Assembly: GCF_012272825.1 (NCBI RefSeq)
Contig: NZ_JAAWWS010000167.1
Location: forward strand, 1-53,868
From: Wenzhouxiangella sp. XN79A
Lineage (GTDB): Bacteria > Pseudomonadota > Gammaproteobacteria > Xanthomonadales > Wenzhouxiangellaceae
Direction: 5' to 3'
Length of the DNA stretch: 53,868 nt
Shown here: in pieces, positions 5,500 to 27,706 of the stretch
Layout of the letters: each line of letters opens with the position of its first letter
Position numbering within the stretch: position 1 is the first letter of the stretch
The notes under the pieces: model-generated
Seen by the model: the letters and a program-made list of their open reading frames with translations, nothing else
The model's database searches: none
What the model was told of the DNA's origin: nothing
Program-made: the position numbers and the translations under genes

Positions 5500-5507
5500 G
5501 CACGATC

Positions 5508-5562
5508 GGGTTCCGGGTTCCGGGTTCCGGGATTCGGGATTCGGGATTCGGGATTCGGGATT
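5508..5562. repeat. Heptanucleotide repeats GGGTTCC and GGGATTC
   Basis: About three copies of GGGTTCC followed by about four copies of GGGATTC, directly after the isocitrate dehydrogenase stop codon. Same repeat family as at 1063, 12294 and 16750. Confidence 0.9.
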
Positions 5563-14990: not shown

Positions 14991-16748
14991 ATGTCCGACC
15001 TCGCTACCTTGCTCGAAGCCATCCGCGAAGGGCGGGCCGAACGGCTCGACCGCGAGCAGGTGCATGAGCTGCTGGCCTGGCTGGCCGGCACTCGCGAGGA
15101 CGTCGGCGCCCCCCACCACGATCCGGTGCTCAACCAGATGGTCCTGTTCCGGCTCGATGCCGCGCTGTTCCGCGACGGCTCGCTTGACCTGCACGCCGCC
15201 GGGGTCGATGCCGAGGTGCCGCTGGACCAGCGCAAGGCCCGCTTCCGTCGCCTGGCCAGCGTGTTCCATCCCGACCGCTTCCCGGCCCTGTCCGATTGGC
15301 TGACGCTCCGCTCCCAGGCCGTGCACACCGCCTACGGCGCGTTCAAGAAGAATCCGCACGCCGCCCCCGCGCGCCCGGCCCCGCCGTCTCCGCAGGCCGA
15401 AGCCGGCACGTCGCCGGCCAGCCGACCGCCGCGTCGCCCCGGCGTCATCAAGCGCAACCTGCTGCACCTGCGCCGCCGCTTCGGTCACGACCGCTACCTG
15501 GCCCACAAGCTCATCGGCGGCCTGACCCTGATCGCCCTGCTGCCGGTCATCAACCTGCTGCTGGCCCCCGGCCCGTCGAACGAGTCCGCTCGGGAGGCGA
15601 GCGGAGGGCGTAGTGAAACCGCCTCCGAATCCGGCGCAGAGAGCAGTGAACGGTTTTCAGTGAACAGCCGACCCCGGGCCACCGACCGAACCCCGAACCC
15701 GGAAACCGGCATCGCCACAGCGCCTGCCGAAGAGCTCCCGGCAGCTGAAAACCGACGACCGAAAACGGCCGTTTCCTCCGGCTCGCAACCCGCCACCGAC
15801 TCCGCCGCCGAACCACCCCCGAGCCTCTCCCTTGCGGCTCGAGAAGCCCTGCGCCCGAGCCGCACCGAAAGCGCCACGCTGCCCAGCGTCGACGCGCAGC
15901 TTGCCGCTCTCGGCCTGCCCACCGACGACGAACGCCTCAACCGCCGCTTCGAAGCCGGCATCCGCCTCACCAGCGAACCCACGGCCGCCCGCGCGACCAT
16001 CGAACGCAGCGAAGCGAGCAGGGCGCCCGCTCGCGGCGCGACCGGAGTGAACAGTGAACCCCGTTCGTCCACCCCGGCCGAACCACCCATCGCCGCCGCT
16101 GCTGAACCGGTCACTCGCCAAGCGATCGCCGAACCGACAACCGACAACCGACAACAAGAAATTGCCCGGCCGTCCGCCCGCAACGAGGACGCCGCAGCCT
16201 TGTCATTCGAAACCGAAAACCGAAAACCGGAAACTCCGGCCGCAGCCGTGGCCGCTTCTACCCGACCCCGATCCCTGAATGCCGAAACGTCCGTCGCCGC
16301 CGTTCCCGAGGCCGCGCCGGACAACGAACCGACTGCGCCAGCCGCAACCACCATCGCCGATCCGGCGCCGAACACCGAACACCGACAACCGGAAACCCGC
16401 GAAGCGCTCGTCCCGGTACCCGGCCGGCTGACCCTCGGCCCCCTGCGCTTCCACCCGGCCGGCGAACTGCTCAGCGCCTTCCAGACCGCGCTGGAAGCCG
16501 GCGACATCCTGGCCCTGCGCGGCCTGTTCGGCACCCAGCCCCCGGCCGACCGCTACGTGGCCCTCATCCAGGCCACCGAAACCCGCAGCGTCGACCTGCG
16601 CGTCGACCGCATGCAGCGCAACGGCAACGAATGGCAGGTCGACTTCGAACTCACCCTCCGAAGCCCCGGCCAGAACCACCTCTACCCCCGCACCACCTTC
16701 CGCCTGGCCGAGACCGGCAACGCCCTGCGGATCGTGGCGGTGGAATGA
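14991..16748 (+). CDS. J-domain-like membrane protein with repeat-derived linker
   Basis: 585 residues, not a recognised named family. The N-terminal ~115 residues look like a J domain, with FHPDRFP near residue 92. A membrane helix follows at about 174-192 (IGGLTLIALLPVINLLLA). Residues ~200-480 are low-complexity Pro/Glu/Thr/Arg linker whose DNA consists of the same 7-bp words that fill the intergenic gaps (AAAACCG, CAGTGAAC, ACCGACA). The last ~110 residues form an ordered alpha/beta domain (LTLGPLRFHPAGELLSAFQ to LRIVAVE) that could be NTF2-like. ATG at 14991 is chosen because upstream codons lie in repeat sequence. A scaffold role in EPS assembly is inference from location. Confidence 0.65.
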   Translation: MSDLATLLEAIREGRAERLDREQVHELLAWLAGTREDVGAPHHDPVLNQMVLFRLDAALFRDGSLDLHAAGVDAEVPLDQRKARFRRLASVFHPDRFPALSDWLTLRSQAVHTAYGAFKKNPHAAPARPAPPSPQAEAGTSPASRPPRRPGVIKRNLLHLRRRFGHDRYLAHKLIGGLTLIALLPVINLLLAPGPSNESAREASGGRSETASESGAESSERFSVNSRPRATDRTPNPETGIATAPAEELPAAENRRPKTAVSSGSQPATDSAAEPPPSLSLAAREALRPSRTESATLPSVDAQLAALGLPTDDERLNRRFEAGIRLTSEPTAARATIERSEASRAPARGATGVNSEPRSSTPAEPPIAAAAEPVTRQAIAEPTTDNRQQEIARPSARNEDAAALSFETENRKPETPAAAVAASTRPRSLNAETSVAAVPEAAPDNEPTAPAATTIADPAPNTEHRQPETREALVPVPGRLTLGPLRFHPAGELLSAFQTALEAGDILALRGLFGTQPPADRYVALIQATETRSVDLRVDRMQRNGNEWQVDFELTLRSPGQNHLYPRTTFRLAETGNALRIVAVE

Positions 16749-16749
16749 A

Positions 16750-17100
16750 CGGGGCGGTGAGCGGTGAACGATGAGCAGTGAACTGTGAGCAGTTTTCAGT
16801 GAACAGTGGAAGGCCTGGGGGTTCGAGGTTTCAGGGTTCAGGTTTCAGGAAAACCAACAACCAACAACCAATCCATTCGCCCCAAGACCGGACCCGATGA
16901 ATTTCTGAAAACTGAAAACTGCTCACTGAAAACTCGTCACCCCCGAACCCTTAACCCTTAACCCTTAACCCTTAACCCTTAACCCTTAACCCTTAACCCT
17001 TAACCCTTAACCCTGAAAACTGAAAACTGAAAACTGAAAACTGAAAACTGAAAACTGAAAACTGAAAACTGAAAACTGAAAACTGAATCCCGAATCCCGC
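16750..17100. repeat. Long heptanucleotide repeat tracts
   Basis: The whole 356-bp gap is made of 7-bp words: GTGAACA/CAGTTTT words, GGTTCAG, about ten copies of CCCTTAA (about 16945-17015) and about ten copies of TGAAAAC (about 17013-17087). No gene is visible. Confidence 0.95.
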
Positions 17101-17104
17101 GCCC

Positions 17105-18388
17105 ATGCCCCCAACCGCCATCCTCGCCACCCTCGTCCTCGTACTCCCGTTGATGATGGGCAACCGCACCCCGGACACCCTCACGCTGTCCGGCCTGGTG
17201 CTGGTGCTCGGCGCGCTGGTCGCGGCAATGGCGGCGTGGCTGGGCAAGGGCAGGGCGCTGCCGGGACCGCCGAAGAGCTGGTGGATCTTCGGCGGCGTGC
17301 TCACCGGGTGGGTGGTGCTGCAGGTGCTGCCCGTCGAATTCCTGGCCCGCAGCTTCGGCCCGTATCCCGACGCCCTGTGGCAATCCGACGCTCCGCCGGG
17401 CCAGTGGTCGCCCAACCCGGCCTGGACCCTGCGCGCCTGGGCCACCTTCGTCGCGCTGGCCACGCTGGCCTGGCTGTTCGGCCGGCTCGACCACCGCCGC
17501 CGCAACCTGGTCTGGCTGGTCGTCGCCGTCGGCGCCGTGCTGCAGGCGCTCTACGGCCTGGCCGCGCACGCCGCCGGCTCCGACACCGTGCTCGGCATCT
17601 GGCCGCGCAACAACCCCGACTACGTCCACGGCACCTTCTCCAACCGCAACCTGTTCGCCGCCTACCTGGCGCTGACCTGGCCGCTGGTCATCGCCATCTG
17701 GTGGAAGCCCGACGTGCCGGGCCTCAAGCGACTGCCGTTCGAGCTGCGCGTGGCCGGCAGCGTGATCGCCGGGGCCATCATCGGCGCGGCCCTGCTGGCT
17801 TCGGCCTCCCGGCTGGGCAGCGCCGCCGGCCTGGCCGGCCTGCTGGTCGGCCTGGTGCTCTGGACCCGTTACCGCCGCAAGCTTGCCCGCGTCGCCGTCT
17901 GGCCGATGTACGCCACCGCCTTCGCCGCGCTCATCGCCGCCACCTGGTACGGCCTTACCCCGCTGGCCGAGCGCCTGGCCGTCACCTCGATCGAAGAGGG
18001 CAGGTTCGAGGTCTATTCGCGGATGATCGGCGAAGTTCCGGCCGGTTGGTGGCTGTGGGGAGTCGGCCTGGGCGGCTTCGAGGCGGTGTTCAAACAGGTC
18101 CAGCCCGCCGACATGCGCGGCTGGTACGACTACGCCCACAACGACCTGCTGCAGTGGCTGCTGGAAATGGGCCTGGTCGGCGCCGGCCTGCTCCTCGCCG
18201 CCGCCGTCGCCCTGGTCAAACACGCCCGCCTCACCCGCGAAACCCTGCCGCTGTACAGCGGACTTGCCGCCTTGGGCCTGGTCGGCCTCGGCGACTTCAG
18301 CTGGCACATCCCCGCCACCCAGGTCGTCCTGGCCCTCTACCTCGGAACCCTCCTCACCCCCGCCCACAAACGAAAACCCACCCCCTGA
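17105..18388 (+). CDS. O-antigen-ligase/Wzy-type membrane protein (polymerase candidate 1)
   Basis: 427 residues with about ten hydrophobic helices and the Wzy_C/O-antigen ligase signature GTFSNRNLFAAYLAL (about 177-191), followed by a large periplasmic loop containing EGRFEVYSRMIGEVPAGW and WGVGLGGFEAVF (about 298-325), and YDYAHNDLLQWLLEMG (about 342-357), the conserved H-N-x-x-L/E segment. Members polymerise or ligate undecaprenol-linked glycans at the periplasmic face of the inner membrane. A second, unrelated-looking member lies at 40215, so which one polymerises the EPS is open. The ATG follows 7-bp repeats with no clear ribosome-binding site. Confidence 0.82.
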   Translation: MPPTAILATLVLVLPLMMGNRTPDTLTLSGLVLVLGALVAAMAAWLGKGRALPGPPKSWWIFGGVLTGWVVLQVLPVEFLARSFGPYPDALWQSDAPPGQWSPNPAWTLRAWATFVALATLAWLFGRLDHRRRNLVWLVVAVGAVLQALYGLAAHAAGSDTVLGIWPRNNPDYVHGTFSNRNLFAAYLALTWPLVIAIWWKPDVPGLKRLPFELRVAGSVIAGAIIGAALLASASRLGSAAGLAGLLVGLVLWTRYRRKLARVAVWPMYATAFAALIAATWYGLTPLAERLAVTSIEEGRFEVYSRMIGEVPAGWWLWGVGLGGFEAVFKQVQPADMRGWYDYAHNDLLQWLLEMGLVGAGLLLAAAVALVKHARLTRETLPLYSGLAALGLVGLGDFSWHIPATQVVLALYLGTLLTPAHKRKPTP

Positions 18389-18439
18389 ACCCGCCCCGCC
18401 CGAACACCTGTCGGCGGCCGCCTGCCAGGCTCCCCGTCG

Positions 18440-19665
18440 ATCCGGGGCGCCGCTTCCAATACCTCCGTCGTTCCGTAGCCCCTGGCCATGTTTCCGTCGT
18501 TCCGGGGCGCCGAACAGGCGAACCCGGAACCTCGTGACGTGGGCGGCAGGGTTCGATGGGCGATTTCGTCACGAGATCCCGGGTTCCGGCTGCGCCGGCC
18601 CCGGGATGACCAGGAGTAGAGGGCGCCGGCTCCGGGATGACCAGGAGGTAGAGGGTGCCGGCTCCGGGATGGCCAGGAGGTAGAGGGCGCCGCTCGCAAT
18701 ACCTCCGTCGTTCCGGGGCGCCGAACAGGCGAACCCGGAACCTCGTGACGCGGGCGGCAGGGTTCTACGGGCGATTTCGTCACGAGATCCCGGGTTCCGG
18801 CTCCGCCGGCCCCGGGATGACGAAGGATAGTGTGGGCCGGTTCGACCATACCTCCGTCGTTCCGGGGCGCCGAACAGGCGAACCCGGAACCTCGTGACGC
18901 GGGCGGCCGGGTTCGATGGGCGATTTCGTCACGAGATCCCGGGTTCCGGCTGCGCCGGCCCCGGGATGACCAGAAGTAGAGGGCCCCGGCCCCGATTTCC
19001 CCGTCGTTACGCGGCACCGCGTCCTCCTTCTCCGTCGTTCCGGGGCGCCGAACAGGCGAACCCGGAACCTCGTGACGCGGGCGGCAGGGTTCGATGGGCG
19101 ATTTCGTCACGAGATCCCGGGTTCCGGCTGCGCCGGCCCCGGGATGACCAGAAGTAGAGGGCGCCGGCCCCCATTTCCCCGTCGTTTCGCGGCACCGCGT
19201 CCTCCTTCTCCGTCGTTCCGGGGCGCCGAACAGGCGAACCCGGAACCTCGTGACGCGGGCGGCAGGGTTCGATGGGCGATTGCGTCACGAGATCCCGGGT
19301 TCCGGCTCCGCCGGCCCCGGGATGACCAGAAGTAGAGGGCGCCGGCCCCGGGATGACCAGAAGTAGAGGGCGCCGGCCCCCATTTCCCCGTCGTTTCGCG
19401 GCACCGCGTCCAATACCTCCGTCGTCCCGGGGCGCCGCTTCCTCCTTCTCCGTCGTTCCGGGGCGCCGAACAGGCGAACCCGGAACCTCGTGGCGCGGGC
19501 GGCAGGGTTCTACGGGCGATCACGTCACGAGATCCCGGGTTCCGGCTCCGCCGGCCCCGGGATGACGAGGAATGTTGGGCGTCGCTTCCTCCTTCTCCGT
19601 CGTTCCGGGGCGCCGAACAGGCGAACCCGGAACCTCGTGACGCAATCGCCCCTCGAACCCTGGCA
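18440..19665. repeat. Palindromic repeat array D, about 7 copies
   Basis: Same ~125-bp unit as arrays A-C, with left inner arms near 18520, 18730, 18875, 19055, 19235, 19475 and 19620. The last copy is cut after its left inner arm and continues into CGCAATCGCCCCTCGAACCC, a junction repeated at the end of array E. Between 18,980 and 19,430 a ~180-bp segment (palindrome plus a linker with CCCATTTCCCCGTCGTTTCG) is repeated nearly unchanged three times. Confidence 0.92.
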
Positions 19666-19751
19666 CCACCTCACCCCGCCCCCGCCCACGGTTCGCTGAA
19701 CCCGAACCCCGGTCCCTTTCCCCCACTCCCATTCCCTGCTACCGTTTTCCC

Positions 19752-20987
19752 ATGTCACGCCTACCCGCCCTCATCGTCCTGGCCGCCCTGGTCCTGGCCA
19801 CGTACATCATGCTGGCCGACTACCTCAACCTGCGCGCCGTGCCCGAGGATCCGGTGCCGTCCGCAACCGACGTCCTGCCCTTGCCGCAACCCTGGGGTGG
19901 CTATGCCTGGCGCGGGCTGGCCCGTCAGGCCGGCGATACCTGGCGCCAGGATCCGACGGCGGCCACCGAAACCCTGCGCGCCGCGGCCGTTCGTTACCCC
20001 GTCGATGCCGTCCAGTGGCTGGACCGCGCCCGCATCGAGGCCGTCACCGGCACCCCCGAAGCGGTCGATACCCTTCTGGCCGTTGCCGGCGCCGTGCAGC
20101 CGTTCGAACGCCGCTCGCTGTGGTCGGCCACCCAGGTCGCGCTGCAGTCCGGCAACCCCCAACTGGCCGAGCGCCAGCTGCGCCGCTGGTTGCGCGACCA
20201 TCCCCAGGACACCGAGCGCGCGCTGTTCGTCGGCCGCCGCTGGATCGACGCCCCCGGCGCGCTGCTCGACCGCGTCCTGCCCGAAGGCCGCGACTACCTC
20301 GACCAGGCCCTGCGCATTGCCCGCCGCCAGCGCGATCCCGACCTGGCCGACGCCGCCTGGGCCCGGATCCAACCCACGCCTGGCCACGACGCCCCGGCCT
20401 TCCTCGACTACATCGAAACCCTGCTCGACGCCGGCCGCGTCGGCGAGGCGCAACAGAAGTGGTTGGCCGTCGATCCGGCTGCAGGGCAGGGCGGCATCGT
20501 CAACGGTCGCTTCGATCGCGAGTTCGGTGAAGGTCTCGGGTTGAACTGGCGCACCGAACGCGCCCCGGCCGGCGTGCGCATCCAGCGCGACACCGCCGAG
20601 TACACCAGCGCCCCGGCCAGCCTGCGCATCGACTTCGGCGGCCAGGACAACATCCACCTGGCCGTCCCCTGGACCCGCGTCCCCGTCGAACCCGGCGCCC
20701 GGCTGGTCCTGACCGGAAGCTGGCGCGCCGACGGCCTGACCACCCGAGCGCGGCCCTACCTGCTGGTCACCGCCGAAGGCGCTCGGCTGAACGCCCGCCT
20801 GGAAGTCCCCGGCGCAAACTTCGACTGGCAGCCCTTCGAGCTCGACATCGACGTCCCCGAAGACACCCGGCTGCTCCGTCTCACGGTCCGCCGCGATCGC
20901 ACGAATGCCTTCGACCGCAACATCGCCGGTACCCTCCGACTCGACGACCTCGACCTCCAGCCCCGCCCCGAACCCGCCGAACCCTGA
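19752..20987 (+). CDS. Membrane-anchored helical-repeat protein with C-terminal beta domain, unknown function
   Basis: 411 residues. One N-terminal hydrophobic helix (residues 6-24, ALIVLAALVLATYIMLADY), then about 220 residues of TPR-like helical pairs (SGNPQLAERQLRRWLRDHPQ is a typical repeat), then a C-terminal region of about 160 residues starting at GGIVNGRFDREFGEGLGLNW that reads like a jelly-roll carbohydrate-binding module. The combination suggests a periplasmic protein touching the polymer or its machinery. It lies between repeat arrays D and E, in the same direction as the other EPS genes. Domain calls are by eye. Confidence 0.65.
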   Translation: MSRLPALIVLAALVLATYIMLADYLNLRAVPEDPVPSATDVLPLPQPWGGYAWRGLARQAGDTWRQDPTAATETLRAAAVRYPVDAVQWLDRARIEAVTGTPEAVDTLLAVAGAVQPFERRSLWSATQVALQSGNPQLAERQLRRWLRDHPQDTERALFVGRRWIDAPGALLDRVLPEGRDYLDQALRIARRQRDPDLADAAWARIQPTPGHDAPAFLDYIETLLDAGRVGEAQQKWLAVDPAAGQGGIVNGRFDREFGEGLGLNWRTERAPAGVRIQRDTAEYTSAPASLRIDFGGQDNIHLAVPWTRVPVEPGARLVLTGSWRADGLTTRARPYLLVTAEGARLNARLEVPGANFDWQPFELDIDVPEDTRLLRLTVRRDRTNAFDRNIAGTLRLDDLDLQPRPEPAEP

Positions 20988-21027
20988 GCCGAAGCCACCC
21001 GGCCCCGAATCACCTCCTCCCGTTGGA

Positions 21028-21870
21028 CGCCGCTTCCTCCTTCTCCGTCGTTTCGCGGCACCGCGTCCAATACGTCCGTCGTCCCGGGGCGCCGCTTCCT
21101 CCTTCTCCGTCGTTCCGGGGCGCCGAACAGGCGAACCCGGAACCTCGTGACGCGGGCGCCACGGTTCGACGGGCGATTTCGTCACGAGATCCCGGGTTCC
21201 GGCTCCGCCGGCCCCGGGATGACCAGAAGTAGAGGGCGCCGGCCCCCGGGATGACGATGGTGGTGGGCACCGCGTCCAATACCTCCGTCGTTCCGGGGCA
21301 CTGCTTCCTCCTTCTCCGTCGTTCCGGGGCGCCGAACAGGCGAACCCGGAACCTCGTGACGCAGGCGGCAGGGTTCGATGGGCGATTTCGTCACGAGATC
21401 CCGGGTTCCGGCTGCGCCGGCCCCGGGATGACGAGGAAGTAGAGGGCGCCGGCCCCCATTTCCCCGTCGTTTCGCGGCACCGCGTCCAATACCTCCGTCG
21501 TCTCGGGGCGCCGTTTTCAATGCCTCTGTCGTTCCGGGATGCCGCTTCCAATACCTCCGTCGTTCCGGGGCGCCGAACAGGCGAACCCGGAACCTCGTGA
21601 CGCGGGCGGCAGGGCTCTACGGGCGATTGCGTCACGAGATCCCGGGTTCCGGCTCCGCCGGCCCCGGGATGACCAGGAAGTAGAGGGCGCCGGCCCCGGG
21701 ATGACCAGGAAGTAGAGGGTGCCGGCCCCCCATTTCCCGTCGTTTCGCGGCACCGCGTCCAATACCTCCGTCGTTCCGGGATGCCGCTTCCTCCTTCTCC
21801 GTCGTTCCGGGGCGCCGAAGAGGCGAACCCGGAACCTCGTGACGCAATCGCCCCTCGAACCCTGGCACCA
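21028..21870. repeat. Palindromic repeat array E, about 4 copies
   Basis: Left inner arms near 21125, 21335, 21575 and 21825. The last is truncated at the same base and followed by the same ~45-bp sequence as the end of array D. Confidence 0.92.
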
Positions 21871-21879
21871 CCTCACCCC

Positions 21880-21985
21880 GCCCACGGTTCGCTGAACCCC
21901 GAACCCCGCCACCCGCCCACGGTTCGCTGAACCCCGAACCCCCGCCACCCGCCCACGGTTCGCTGAACCCCGAACCCCGCCCCTC
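21880..21985. repeat. Three tandem copies of a 35-36-bp repeat
   Basis: Copies begin at 21880, 21915 and 21951 with GCCCACGGTTCGCTGAACCC, each continuing with GAACCCCGCCACCC-type sequence. The start of one related copy is also seen at 19680-19715 after array D. The following AT-richer stretch 21990-22250 is the upstream region of the next gene. Confidence 0.85.
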
Positions 21986-22052
21986 ACGGAACCCCACCCA
22001 TCCATAGCTTCCCCCTATCCCAACCGTCACCAAATATTCACACCCTCTTCCC

Positions 22053-22081
22053 TTGATTTAATTAGAAAATCCGGATACCGT
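22053..22081 (+). promoter_or_regulatory. Weak candidate promoter upstream of the wecA-like gene
   Basis: TTGATT (22053-22058), 17-bp spacer, TACCGT (22076-22081), in an unusually AT-rich patch after array E. The -10 match is poor. Confidence 0.3.
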
Positions 22082-22250
22082 GAAATAACGATCACGTCCT
22101 GGCGTACTGGATCGAAGTAGTTCGAAGAACCATCACTCGCAGTAGGGGAATCCATGGGAGCCTGGATCACCAAACGAATCAGCGGTCCATCGGTCCATCG
22201 ACGGCCGAACACCGCAGTGCGCGCCGTGGGTGGCGGCGTTGGGGGGCACA

Positions 22251-23456
22251 GTGGCTGGATTCCCTGAGCTCGACACCGCCCACATCCTGCTGGCGCTGGC
22301 CGTGGCCTTCGGCGCGGCCGCGGCGCTGGTTCCGTTGCTGAACAAACCCGCCGCCCGCCTCGGCCTGGTCGACCACCCCAACCACCGTAAGCAGCACGAA
22401 GCGCCCACACCGCTGACCGGCGGCCTGGCCCTGGCCCTGGGCGCGGTGGCCGCCTTCCTGGTCGCCTTCGGCGGGCAGTGGCAGCCGTTCTGGACGCTGG
22501 CCCTGGGCGCGGCCGTGCTGCTGGTCGTCGGCCTGCTCGACGACATCCGCGAGCTTTCCGCCAGCCTCCGCTTCCTGGTCCAGATCTTCGTCGCTGCCGT
22601 CATGGTCTACGGCGGCGGGCTGGAAGTGCAGAGCCTGGGCCCGGTCTTCGGCGCCGGCCTGGGCAACATCGGCCTGGGCCCGTTTTCCGGCCTGTTCACC
22701 ATCGCCTGCGTGGTGTTCATGATCAACGCCGTCAACATGATGGACGGGCTCGACGGCCTGGCCGGCGGTGCGGCCTTCGTGGCCTTCCTGCTGCTGTATG
22801 CCGTGGCCCTGCTCGACGGTGCCCCCGCCGGGCTGCGGGCCCTGCCGCTGCTGATGGCCGGCGCCACGCTGGGCTTCCTGGTCTACAACCTGCGCCGGCC
22901 GATCCGCCCGCGCGCCCGGGCGTTCCTGGGCGACAACGGCAGCATGGTGCTGGGCTATGCCATGGCCTGGCTGGCCATTGCCATCGCCACTCGCGAAGGC
23001 GCCGGCGTGTACCCCGTCACCATCGCCTGGCTGCTGATCATCCCGGCCATGGACACGCTGGCCCTGTTCGTGCGCCGCATCCGGCTGGGCCGCAGCCCGT
23101 TCTCGGCCGACCGCGCCCACCTGCACCACCTGCTGCAGCGCGCCGGCTACCGCGTGTCGACTTCGGTGTACATGATCCACGCCCTGGTATTGCTGGCCGG
23201 CCTGTTCGGCGTGCTCGGCTGGCAGCAGGGCTGGCCGCCGGCGCTGCTGTTCGTGCTGGCCGCCGCCGTGCTGATCGGCTACCAGCTGCTGCTGGCCCGC
23301 GCCGCCCGCCTGCTGCGCTGGCGCCACCGCCGTCGCCGCCGCCGCAACGGCGAAGCCGCCGACGGCGGTCCGAACGGTCGGCGCCGCCCGGTAACCATCC
23401 AGCACAGCAGCGGCCACATCGGCCCGCGCAGCAGCAGGCGGGGAGGGCAGCCATGA
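22251..23456 (+). CDS. WecA/MraY-family undecaprenyl-phosphate sugar-1-phosphate transferase
   Basis: Polytopic enzyme (about 401 residues, ten or so helices) that starts the glycan by moving a sugar-1-phosphate, probably GlcNAc-1-P, from UDP-sugar to undecaprenyl phosphate. Family motifs: DHPNHRKQH near residue 40, LLDDIRELS (about 87), MINAVNMMDGLDGLAGG (about 157-173), the GDNGSM loop (about 227), and HLHHLL (about 289), the conserved His motif. The C-terminus is a basic tail. GTG at 22251 is preferred because GGGGGG lies 4 bp upstream; an in-frame GTG at 22230 would add 7 residues. Its stop overlaps the next gene by 4 bp. Confidence 0.88.
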   Translation: MAGFPELDTAHILLALAVAFGAAAALVPLLNKPAARLGLVDHPNHRKQHEAPTPLTGGLALALGAVAAFLVAFGGQWQPFWTLALGAAVLLVVGLLDDIRELSASLRFLVQIFVAAVMVYGGGLEVQSLGPVFGAGLGNIGLGPFSGLFTIACVVFMINAVNMMDGLDGLAGGAAFVAFLLLYAVALLDGAPAGLRALPLLMAGATLGFLVYNLRRPIRPRARAFLGDNGSMVLGYAMAWLAIAIATREGAGVYPVTIAWLLIIPAMDTLALFVRRIRLGRSPFSADRAHLHHLLQRAGYRVSTSVYMIHALVLLAGLFGVLGWQQGWPPALLFVLAAAVLIGYQLLLARAARLLRWRHRRRRRRNGEAADGGPNGRRRPVTIQHSSGHIGPRSSRRGGQP

Positions 23457-26289: not shown

Positions 26290-26811
26290 GTGTTCAAACG
26301 CTTCTCCGCCCTTCCGCCCGACGACCGCCGCGCCCTGTACGCCGCCGCGCCCCGATTGCTGTTCGTCTGGGCCCTGCTTCCGTTTTTGGGCATCAAGCGC
26401 CTCCAGCCCGGCCCCCCGAAGGCCGCGACACCGAGCGAACGCGAAGTCGAGCAGACCACTGCGCCCGGCGCGCGGACGAGCAGCCGCGAAGTCGAGCCCT
26501 GGGAAACCCGCGCCAGGGCCATCCACCGAATCGCCACGCGCCTGCCCAACTGCCGCTGCCTACCCAGGTCCCTGACCCTCGCTCGCTGGATGGCCAGCGA
26601 GGGCCTCGACCCCGAACTGAAAATGGGCTACCGGCCAGCGTCTACCCGCGACGGCGCATCCGAGCCCCTGGCCCACGCCTGGATCGAACTCGATGGCGTA
26701 CCCATCGGCGAAACCGAAGAGTCCCTGGCCGGCCTGTTGCCCCTGTCCTGGCCAACCGCAGCCCGCGCATCACGACGCTGGTCCCGTGGCCCACTGAAAA
26801 CTGACAACTGA
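26290..26811 (+). CDS. Transglutaminase-like cysteine protease (lasso-peptide B2-like)
   Basis: 173 residues. The catalytic Cys is in CRCLPRSLTLARWMASEG (about residue 97), followed by LKMGYRPA, and His with its partner in LAHAWIELDGVPIGE (about 139), matching the Transglut_core3 pattern of lasso-peptide B2 proteins. No lasso precursor, PqqD-like leader-binding protein or asparagine-synthase-like cyclase lies nearby, so the job here is unknown; such proteins also occur singly in EPS loci. GTG at 26290 is the likely start. The last residues (GPLKTDN) are encoded by a TGAAAAC repeat. Confidence 0.72.
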   Translation: MFKRFSALPPDDRRALYAAAPRLLFVWALLPFLGIKRLQPGPPKAATPSEREVEQTTAPGARTSSREVEPWETRARAIHRIATRLPNCRCLPRSLTLARWMASEGLDPELKMGYRPASTRDGASEPLAHAWIELDGVPIGETEESLAGLLPLSWPTAARASRRWSRGPLKTDN

Positions 26812-26830
26812 AAACTGAAAACAAGCCCCT

Positions 26831-27256
26831 ATGCCCTACCGAGGTTTCGAAGATCTGGACGTCTGGAAGCGCTCAAAGAAACTGGCCGTCGACATCTACG
26901 CAGCCTTCCGATCCAGTAACGATTGGGGCTTGAAGAACCAGATCACCCGCTCGGCTGTCTCCGTTCTCTCGAACATCGCAGAAGGCCACGAGCGCGGAAC
27001 AACGAAGGAATTCATTCGCTTCCTCTACATCGCCAAGGGCTCAACGGCAGAGCTCCGCACCCAACTGAGCATCGCCAGCGAAGTAGGGGAGATCAACGCA
27101 GAAACTGTGACTCGACTGATCGACGAGGCCAGACAAATCAACGCAATGCTCCAGTCCCTGATCCGCAGCACCGAAACCAGGGCTGGCGAAGAAGCCGCCG
27201 GCTATGAGCTCCTCGACTTCGTTTCCGAAGCCCGAAAACTGGCGACTGAAAACTGA
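26831..27256 (+). CDS. Four-helix-bundle (S23) protein 3
   Basis: 141 residues with canonical family motifs: FEDLDVWKRSKKLAVDIYAA at the start, NQITRSAVSVLSNIAEGHER (about 36-55), EFIRFLYIAKGSTAELRTQL (about 60-79), and a final helix INAMLQSLIRS. More conventional in sequence than copy 1. The tail SEARKLATEN is encoded by the start of a TGAAAAC repeat tract. No ops leader precedes this copy; it is probably transcribed from leader 2. Confidence 0.85.
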   Translation: MPYRGFEDLDVWKRSKKLAVDIYAAFRSSNDWGLKNQITRSAVSVLSNIAEGHERGTTKEFIRFLYIAKGSTAELRTQLSIASEVGEINAETVTRLIDEARQINAMLQSLIRSTETRAGEEAAGYELLDFVSEARKLATEN

Positions 27257-27331
27257 AAACCGACAACTGAAGACTCACCACTGACAACTGAAAACTGTTA
27301 ACCGGAAACTGAAAACTGCTCACTGAAAACT
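27238..27331. repeat. Heptanucleotide repeats of the TGAAAAC family
   Basis: About ten partly degenerate copies of ACTGAAA/CTGACAA words between S23 gene 3 and the MarR-type gene. A shorter tract lies at 26796-26822. Confidence 0.85.
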
Positions 27332-27706
27332 TTGTTGTCTGACGACCTCAAATACCAGATCCTGACCGCCCTCGAAGCCAACCCGAAGGCTTCGCAGCGA
27401 GAACTCGCCGCCGAAGTCGGCATCAGCCTCGGACGCACGAACTACTGCCTCCGCGCCCTGATCGACAAAGGCTGGGTGAAAGCCAGGAACTTCAAGAACA
27501 GCAAGAACAAAGCGGCCTACATGTACAACCTGACCCCCAGCGGCATTGCCGCCAAGGCGCAGGTCGCCCGAGCGTTTCTCGCAAAAAAGCAGGCCGAATA
27601 CGAAGCGCTGGAGCAGGAAATCGAGCAATTGCGCCAGGAAGTCGAGGAAAGCCCGGACTCGCAGTTCCGGAACCCGGAAACCGTAAACCCGAAACCGAAT
27701 TCATGA
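27332..27706 (+). CDS. MarR-type EPS-associated transcriptional regulator
   Basis: 124 residues with a winged helix-turn-helix (LKYQILTALEANPKASQREL, then GISLGRTNYCLRALIDKGWV, then YNLTPSGIAAKAQVARAFL) and a short coiled coil (YEALEQEIEQLRQEVEE). This is the small MarR-family protein described as EPS-associated (TIGR04176), often found at the head of EPS biosynthesis operons. Starts with TTG at 27332 without a clear ribosome-binding site. The last ~14 residues (FRNPETVNPKPNS) are encoded by CCCGAAA-type repeats. Its stop overlaps the next start codon (ATGA, 27703-27706). Confidence 0.82.
   Translation: MLSDDLKYQILTALEANPKASQRELAAEVGISLGRTNYCLRALIDKGWVKARNFKNSKNKAAYMYNLTPSGIAAKAQVARAFLAKKQAEYEALEQEIEQLRQEVEESPDSQFRNPETVNPKPNS

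Follow-up and report, generated by a model that had tools for sequence, protein, structure and literature searches.

Stop-free heptanucleotide repeats in disordered protein linkers of the Wenzhouxiangellaceae

The palindromic elements of Rickettsia are small dispersed pieces of intergenic DNA that also occur in frame inside ORFs. In enterobacteria, RU elements with units of 103-168 bp and defined sequence likewise bring intergenic DNA in frame inside genes, according to the passages cited (PMC2759123); the repeats analysed here resemble them in being small dispersed intergenic DNA read in frame, and differ in being variable heptamer arrays. Amino-acid tandem repeats within the ORFs of Borgs are commonly predicted to be disordered and are enriched in Pro, Thr, Glu and Lys, with unit lengths that, in the passages cited, are all divisible by three and with copies that are near perfect (PMC9879509), whereas the present unit is seven and its period of 7 falls outside the Borg type.

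Closer systems are built on heptamers. Heptanucleotide repeats of the GGGAATC type, quadruplex-forming and mostly intergenic, occur in Xanthomonas and Nostoc, and 7-11% of them overlap ORFs in two xanthomonads, with a higher share in Nostoc (PMC4692102). For the TAACTGA repeats of marine Beggiatoaceae, MacGregor described both a stop rule and a heptapeptide: the repeats carry stops in three frames one way and encode an open heptapeptide (LSVISYQ) the other way, and they lie within or overlap the coding sequence of 25 putative proteins (PMC4679880). As far as the passages cited from these two papers go, heptamer arrays, the stop rule and copies within ORFs are thus already known.

Here we describe heptamer repeats in the window (the whole stretch of DNA that was analysed, 53,868 nucleotides of Wenzhouxiangella sp. 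XN79A) and in the proteins of related genomes. These repeats share with those of Xanthomonas the same bacterial order, a mostly intergenic location and a similar polarity rule, but most of their words differ, one GGGATTC-type array being present in the window (5506-5562); the passages cited from PMC4692102 do not place the Xanthomonas and Nostoc repeats in interdomain linkers, a placement found in the present family. Unlike the in-ORF cases of Beggiatoaceae, which in the passages cited lie mostly at the ends of proteins or in short proteins without assigned function (PMC4679880), the present tracts are interdomain ones in conserved enzymes, and both the species that carry them and the words they use are numerous. 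We found no report of heptamers in pyruvate dehydrogenase or in interdomain linkers in the open-licence literature, searched mostly at the level of titles and abstract openings, so that their recurrence in such linkers appears undescribed, which is no proof of novelty. In this case, repeat DNA with a unit length not divisible by three has been retained as protein within multidomain proteins that are conserved, the linkers of pyruvate dehydrogenase among them. It provides a sequence-labelled system for change in disordered linkers, in which the source of an insert is indicated by its word and the arrays open to capture are predicted by the stop and frame rules, and it corrects the idea that repeats made the linkers, since the evidence favours repeats moving into pre-existing ones.

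The reading we prefer, with a probability of roughly 0.7, is that disordered linkers already present in a bacterial family rich in repeats, the Wenzhouxiangellaceae, captured stop-free heptamer repeats. Dispersed, mostly intergenic arrays would have entered the disordered linkers of existing genes, repeatedly or anciently, and would have survived only where the overall frame was kept, the reading frame was free of stops and the insertion left folded structure unbroken. On each strand, a surviving word would encode a single cyclic heptapeptide (PKTENRK, PTTDNRQ, PETGNRK), which on the GAA strand is hydrophilic and therefore usable as generic linker filler; in the protein encoded in the window, such patches would make up about a fifth of a linker of a kind that also exists without them. 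This reading builds on a DNA-level signal, on the confinement of tracts to linkers in the sets examined, on an association with genome repeat load and on the overlapping lengths of repeat-free linkers. Insertion may have proceeded by array movement, recombination or slippage, and most of the captured peptide is probably neutral. The comparisons between species rest on one genome each, and among these genomes no pair of close strains displays a linker before and after capture.

A J-domain-like protein in an exopolysaccharide cluster

The ORF at 14991-16748 (+) is stop-free throughout and encodes a protein of 585 aa, to which a genome search found one match in the window genome. Its layout is J-domain-like, probably transmembrane, linker and NTF2-like, and it sits in an exopolysaccharide cluster ordered as polysaccharide export, Wzz/tyrosine-kinase-like, J-like gene, O-antigen ligase, glycosyltransferase family 4 and NusG-like; the gene order around its orthologues is similar. 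The features are as follows.

14991..15362, + strand: J-domain-like N-terminal domain (residues 1-124; HPD motif at residues 93-95)
15492..15563, + strand: probable transmembrane helix (residues 168-191; hydrophobic AF2 helix, aligned in 13 sequences)
15570..16427, + strand: disordered linker with heptamer patches (residues 194-479; AF2 pLDDT <50, lag-7 excess)
15641..15668, + strand: mixed-word heptamer patch GAGCAGTGAACGGTTTTCAGTGAACAGC (10-mer matches to noncoding heptamer neighbourhoods; under the tandem threshold)
15686..15709, + strand: heptamer tract of CCGAACC / CCGGAAA type, peptide TPNPETG (strict tract)
15745..15759, + strand: heptamer patch CTGAAAACCGACGAC (10-mer matches)
15888..15968, + strand: conserved linker island (VDAQLAALGL...) with a short predicted helix (congener alignment and AF2)
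16046..16059, + strand: heptamer patch (AGTGAAC)2, neither TGA triplet in frame (10-mer matches)
16132..16155, + strand: heptamer tract (CCGACAA)3, peptide EPTTDNRQQ (strict tract)
16208..16235, + strand: heptamer tract of CCGAAAA type, peptide ETENRKPET (strict tract and 10-mer matches)
16366..16399, + strand: heptamer tract (CCGAACA)2 followed by CCGACAA / CCGGAAA words, peptide NTEHRQPET (strict tract and 10-mer matches)
16428..16745, + strand: C-terminal NTF2/cystatin-like domain (best Foldseek match 3gwr, E 8.5e-05; AF2 blocks of 65-87 from residue 481)
16754..17099, + strand: intergenic heptamer arrays, including (AACCCTT)n(CTGAAAA)n, between the J-like gene and the O-antigen ligase gene

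All 13 sequences compared (the window protein and 12 relatives) have the HPD motif, and a 13-sequence profile of the N-terminal part matched 27 PDB sequences at E ≤ 1, 18 of them with DnaJ or dnj in their names (best E 0.0013). Pfam DnaJ is matched at E ≤ 1 by 8 of the 13 sequences (best 0.0027), the window protein not among them; searched by itself, that protein matches no Pfam family at this threshold. The motif together with this detectable similarity points to a J-domain, a sequence-based assignment that does not imply function as a DnaK partner. An AlphaFold2 model built with six sequences (mean pLDDT 58, pTM 0.30) gives a helical N-terminal domain with blocks of pLDDT 80-94 across residues 1-120 and predicts a helix at residues 168-191 that would probably be membrane-spanning. 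The linker stays below a pLDDT of 50 except for single residues and about residues 298-326, where short helices are predicted at 300-306 and 312-326; the island sequence VDAQLAALGL aligns here with VEEQLAALGL, VDEQLAAMGL and VDEQLRQLGL of three congeners. The best 50 Foldseek rows, taken from their lengths as matches to the C-terminal domain, hold no J-domain chain and include several with NTF2-like or cystatin-like titles, NTF2-like folds leading, for a domain of alpha+beta fold.

Homologues of the gene at 19752-20987 sit directly upstream of the J-like gene in the loci of 11 of the 12 relatives, the twelfth locus beginning inside that gene; in the window genome the gene is placed after the O-antigen ligase instead (region 17105-23456). 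GC-rich repeat arrays with periods near 31 and 148-241 bases occur at 12.4-14.9, 18.5-19.4 and 21.0-21.85 kb, on both sides of both gene positions, making a repeat-mediated rearrangement likely.

Heptamer words and their reading in frame

Genome-wide, a three-unit heptamer pattern has 226 matches in the window genome, compared with 3 for the reversed control. A 516-kb sample of this genome (about 14% of it, window included and partly selected for arrays) holds 73 tracts, of which 63 are noncoding, 4 straddle gene ends and 6 lie within called genes; gene calls came from a custom script that leaves 37% of the window uncalled, so that some of the noncoding tracts could fall in missed genes. Four of the six in-gene tracts are those of the J-protein linker, one forms a C-terminal tail (27667-27696) and one is a GC-rich match resembling chance. 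Arrays are frequently found no more than about 150 bases from the end of a contig (e.g. L079, L088, L091, L092, L099, L101); assemblies therefore probably break at arrays, and array counts are lower bounds. The arrays immediately downstream of the J-like gene are the parent kind of repeat for the words of its linker. Where heptamer tracts run over the 3' ends of genes, they give short tails that end, just before the stop, in KTDN, ATEN, NPKPNS or KPET (window 26793-26822, 27245-27267 and 27667-27696; L060:5084-5110).

The preliminary description had proposed that such repeats cycle through the frames and so yield varied peptide. The arithmetic runs the other way: because 7 is coprime to 3, all seven triplets of a tandem 7-mer come up once every 21 bases whichever frame is read, so that a perfect array has a single cyclic heptapeptide common to its three frames. 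For CCGAAAA this is PKTENRK and for CCGACAA it is PTTDNRQ, and ETENRKPET and EPTTDNRQQ in the linker are peptides of the same sort; the variety of peptide in the linker stems from different and imperfect words. By the same token, since each triplet appears in every frame, a unit that contains a stop halts every frame within 21 bases. A stop-containing unit is present on one strand in 39 of the 63 noncoding tracts and on neither strand in the other 24.

That words of the intergenic arrays recur in the linker, on the coding strand and with the ORF open, was borne out. Lag-7 identity in the linker is 0.393 (840 bases, residues 196-475), a value reached by none of 1000 codon shuffles (0.294 +/- 0.014) and by none of 1000 synonymous-only shuffles that kept the protein (0.350 +/- 0.011). 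Strict tracts cover 0.108 of the linker with a best tract score of 17, and neither value was reached in 1000 codon shuffles, while synonymous shuffles reached the coverage in 12 and the score in 3 of 1000, indicating that part of the period-7 signal resides in the protein sequence itself. The N-terminal part is at chance level (lag-7 0.273), the C-terminal domain is slightly above its codon shuffles (0.319, reached by 47/1000), and tandem tracts are absent from both of these parts of the J-protein. All four strict tracts (15686-15709, 16132-16155, 16210-16234 and 16368-16385) are stop-free on the coding strand, which for so small a number is not strong evidence alone. The presence of the words and the period-7 excess are therefore real, but the claim of varied peptide is wrong for perfect arrays, and the claim that the words fill about 280 codons was overstated: strict tracts make up 10.8% of the linker, and the seven recognisable patches, hand-picked from 10-mer matches, about 19% (166 of 858 bases).

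Shared 10-mers tie the linker to the noncoding arrays: those that also occur in noncoding heptamer neighbourhoods cover 28.5% of it, compared with 13.1 +/- 3.6% in codon shuffles (highest of 500, 24.0%), and by this measure the J-like gene ranks first among 202 called genes of at least 840 bases. Such sharing speaks against a purely local origin, in which slippage on Pro, Glu, Thr and Arg codons, under the same mutational bias that makes the intergenic heptamers, would have produced the tracts with nothing copied from elsewhere. The coding tracts are short and often imperfect, as local slippage would predict, but several different words stand in one linker, and slippage by one 7-base unit throws the reading out of frame, save where three units change together or a second change restores it. 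We regard local slippage as unlikely.

Linkers of J-protein orthologues and of pyruvate dehydrogenase

Matches to the J-protein at E ≤ 0.001 were found in 13 of the 61 genomes searched, the window genome included, and the congeners' identity to the whole protein is only 35-37%. As had been predicted, the linker varies while the ends stay constant: it spans 63-385 aa, compared with 193-216 aa for the N-terminal part with its transmembrane segment (one further N-part, of 172 aa, is cut by a contig start) and 106-132 aa for the C-terminal domain, whose border was usable in 11 sequences; of the other two, one is cut short where its contig ends and one shifts frame within a Pro-Glu repeat. The latter orthologue (L024, G022) has a long Pro-Glu repeat linker after which the frame seems to change, perhaps through a frameshift or a sequencing error.

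Among the 13 J-proteins, a heptamer excess is seen only in the window genome (G000, 226 matches) and in G002 (114 matches), where the lag-7 value of the linker was reached by 2 of 500 shuffles and its coverage by none of 500. The words of the two linkers differ. One tract of each (ETENRKPET in the window, DDRNPESRI in G002) occupies the same columns of the alignment, and this patch may possibly descend from a shared origin. J-linkers of 179, 205 and 130 aa in G003, G015 and G027, genomes with 2 or 3 array-pattern matches, show no heptamer excess, nor does the linker of 309 aa in G001 (23 matches), the second longest of 11. The repeat-loaded genomes G021, G023 (partial) and G034 also have no tracts or excess in this linker.

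These orthologues bear on how the linker arose. The preliminary description saw in the repeats a route to the linker itself, a suggestion not supported in view of the heptamer-free orthologue linkers of 130-309 aa; the presence of such linkers in poorly or lightly loaded genomes indicates that repeats most likely colonised disordered linkers that already existed. What stands of that interpretation is that intergenic words occur in frame in linkers, in the window, in G002 and in other proteins of the family; what lacks support is the origin of the linker from repeats. Identical linker sequence in repeat-free genomes, named in the preliminary description as what would refute it, was looked for among the J-protein orthologues and was not seen. 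A further idea, in which genes fused and their former intergenic spacers survive as fossils in the linkers, was dropped, as heptamer-free homologues already share the fused architecture.

To look beyond the J-protein, we classified the tracts in 40 regions around arrays from five relatives, chosen for their arrays, together with one J-protein locus per genome. Coding, straddling and noncoding tracts numbered 5/0/29 in G002, 9/5/30 in G021, 0/0/11 in G034, 2/0/13 in G024 and 5/0/24 in G006. Those in lipoyl-domain proteins lie in E2 and lipoyl-E3 of the pyruvate dehydrogenase type (both in G021 and G006, E3 in G024), with Pfam domains Biotin_lipoyl and Pyr_redox_2 in all three genomes and Biotin_lipoyl, E3_binding and 2-oxoacid_dh in G021 and G006. 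G021 also has coding sequence of this kind close to the N-terminus of an ApbE-family protein, and G002 has coding tracts in the J-protein and in the C-terminal part of its neighbour. A tract in G006 (L117:5212-5242) codes for about ten residues of a UDP-sugar dehydrogenase, between the NAD-binding and central Pfam domains.

Homologues were then collected by E2 similarity, with 53 of 61 genomes matching at E ≤ 1e-60; 30 loci and the array-chosen L107 of G024 yielded 45 readable linkers from 26 of the 37 family genomes (among the 11 remaining, six gave no E2 hit at this threshold and five gave one at loci outside the set). Outside the 45 are the E3 linkers of G011, G013, G015, G019, G022 and G030 and the E2 linker of G024. 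Heptamer tracts are present in 24 of the 45 linkers, 46 tracts in 11.07 kb, compared with none in 46.0 kb of flanking lipoyl and catalytic sequence; codon shuffles give an expectation of 0.0. Leaving out the discovery genomes G006, G021 and G024, tracts remain in 19 of 40 linkers (33 tracts in 9.9 kb versus 0 in 40.4 kb).

Tract presence follows the repeat load of the genome, with species that are not independent of one another: tracts occur in 23 of 30 linkers of loaded genomes and in 1 of 15 of poor ones (Fisher 1.2e-5, phylogeny uncorrected), and in 18 of 25 versus 1 of 15 without the discovery genomes, load being measured as matches to one pattern with a cut-off of 15 set after the data were seen. 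G027 is the exception, with two tracts in its E2 linker and only 3 matches genome-wide. The window genome's own E2 and E3 linkers carry no tract despite its load, its E3 peptide LETGNRGPETG being perhaps a tract remnant, and no tract was found either in the E2 and E3 linkers examined in the congeners G001 and G004. The E2/E3 linkers are a better case of capture than the J-protein. Outside the family, the E3 linkers of G043 and G053 (L140, L142) carry tracts of GTCACCC and ACTCACC type in genomes without a match to the array pattern.

Linker lengths with and without tracts overlap, with medians of 98.5 versus 89 aa for E2 (P 0.16) and 73 versus 62 aa for E3 (P 0.20); a difference of about 10 aa, not significant, leaves room for a small added length of one tract's worth. 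This excess, slight as it is, is in the direction expected if repeats created linkers de novo, with linker length being largely heptamer DNA turned coding. That proposal also gains from gene ends, namely the heptamer-derived tails in the window genome and the G002 homologue of the 411-aa gene at 19752 (L019:6960-8741), which has 593 aa and whose last 160 residues include sequence coded by heptamer tracts and longer repeats. Set against the overlap of E2/E3 lengths and the J-protein linkers of 130-309 aa without heptamers, we consider it very unlikely, and disfavour a de novo origin for internal linkers.

PETGNRKPET or variants of it align near the same place in many E2/E3 linkers across genera. 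This makes it likely that a small number of old captures have been inherited, and the linkers counted do not stand for independent events. Seven E2/E3 tracts have a stop-containing unit. Five of them read GAAACCCGAAACCT..., with CGA in place of what would be an in-frame TGA (PETRNLKPET); one has TTA at the TGA position (PETLNLKPET). G010 has 215 genome-wide matches to GAAACCT x3 and none to GAAACCG x3, and carries GAAACCT tracts in both E2 and E3. The E3 linkers of G006 and G014 use GAAACCT even though GAAACCG is commoner genome-wide (21 vs 3 and 11 vs 3), so that word usage in linker and genome can differ, as local slippage would allow; the words in linkers can change.

The alignable position of the PETGNRKPET-like peptides would also fit selection for the encoded peptide, or for a DNA or RNA structure of the tract, as something functional in the linker. 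Further points in its favour are the two E2 tracts kept by G027 with its 3 matches genome-wide, the location of the sole GAAACCG x3 match of G018 (C20:25014) within its E2 gene, and the low pS of the G021/G036 E3 linker (0.118 vs 0.355 and 0.307 in the flanks). Yet linker pN lies well above that of both flanking domains in 10 of the 11 E2/E3 pairs chosen for pN/pS (in some E3 pairs the locus ended within the catalytic part); the exception is again E3 of G021/G036, with 0.031 in the linker versus 0.043 in the lipoyl and 0.025 in the catalytic part. As the three tract-free congeners also weigh against a required peptide, and the J-protein uses other words, we think such selection hardly probable.

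Array polarity

Tracts within 100 bases of a gene, read on the gene strand, are T-rich after stops in 75 of 99 cases and A-rich before starts in 46 of 56 (75/24 at 3' ends and 10/46 at 5' ends, Fisher 3e-12), following the polarity rule of the Xanthomonas type; the count covers six genomes with overlapping stretches removed, and leaves aside 52 tracts more than 100 bases from a gene and 2 unoriented ones. Within linkers, T-rich tracts lie in the N-terminal half in 9 of 11 cases and A-rich tracts in the C-terminal half in 28 of 41 (Mann-Whitney 0.03, tracts not independent), weakly suggesting the same order as at gene ends.

A wider reading, which we put forward tentatively and hold to be doubtful, would make heptamer arrays a general, frame-indifferent source of linkers that enters with gene-end polarity, the captured copies being able to outlive the intergenic arrays. 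A stop-free array would give a fixed heptapeptide in any frame and hence be pre-adapted filler; the T-rich strand would follow the first domain and the A-rich strand precede the second, a domain border being treated like a gene border, and captured copies would be left behind as coding fossils.

Neighbouring tracts of opposite orientation (L019, L078-L085 and L148-L161 of G002, and other loci) form inverted repeats around cores of 1-217 bases (median 55.5), which look unrelated to one another in a by-eye comparison. Of 114 neighbouring pairs, those of opposite orientation and at most 250 bases apart run T-rich then A-rich in 45 cases and the other way in 13, a preference also seen where both tracts are noncoding (40 vs 10) and in G002 (16 vs 0).
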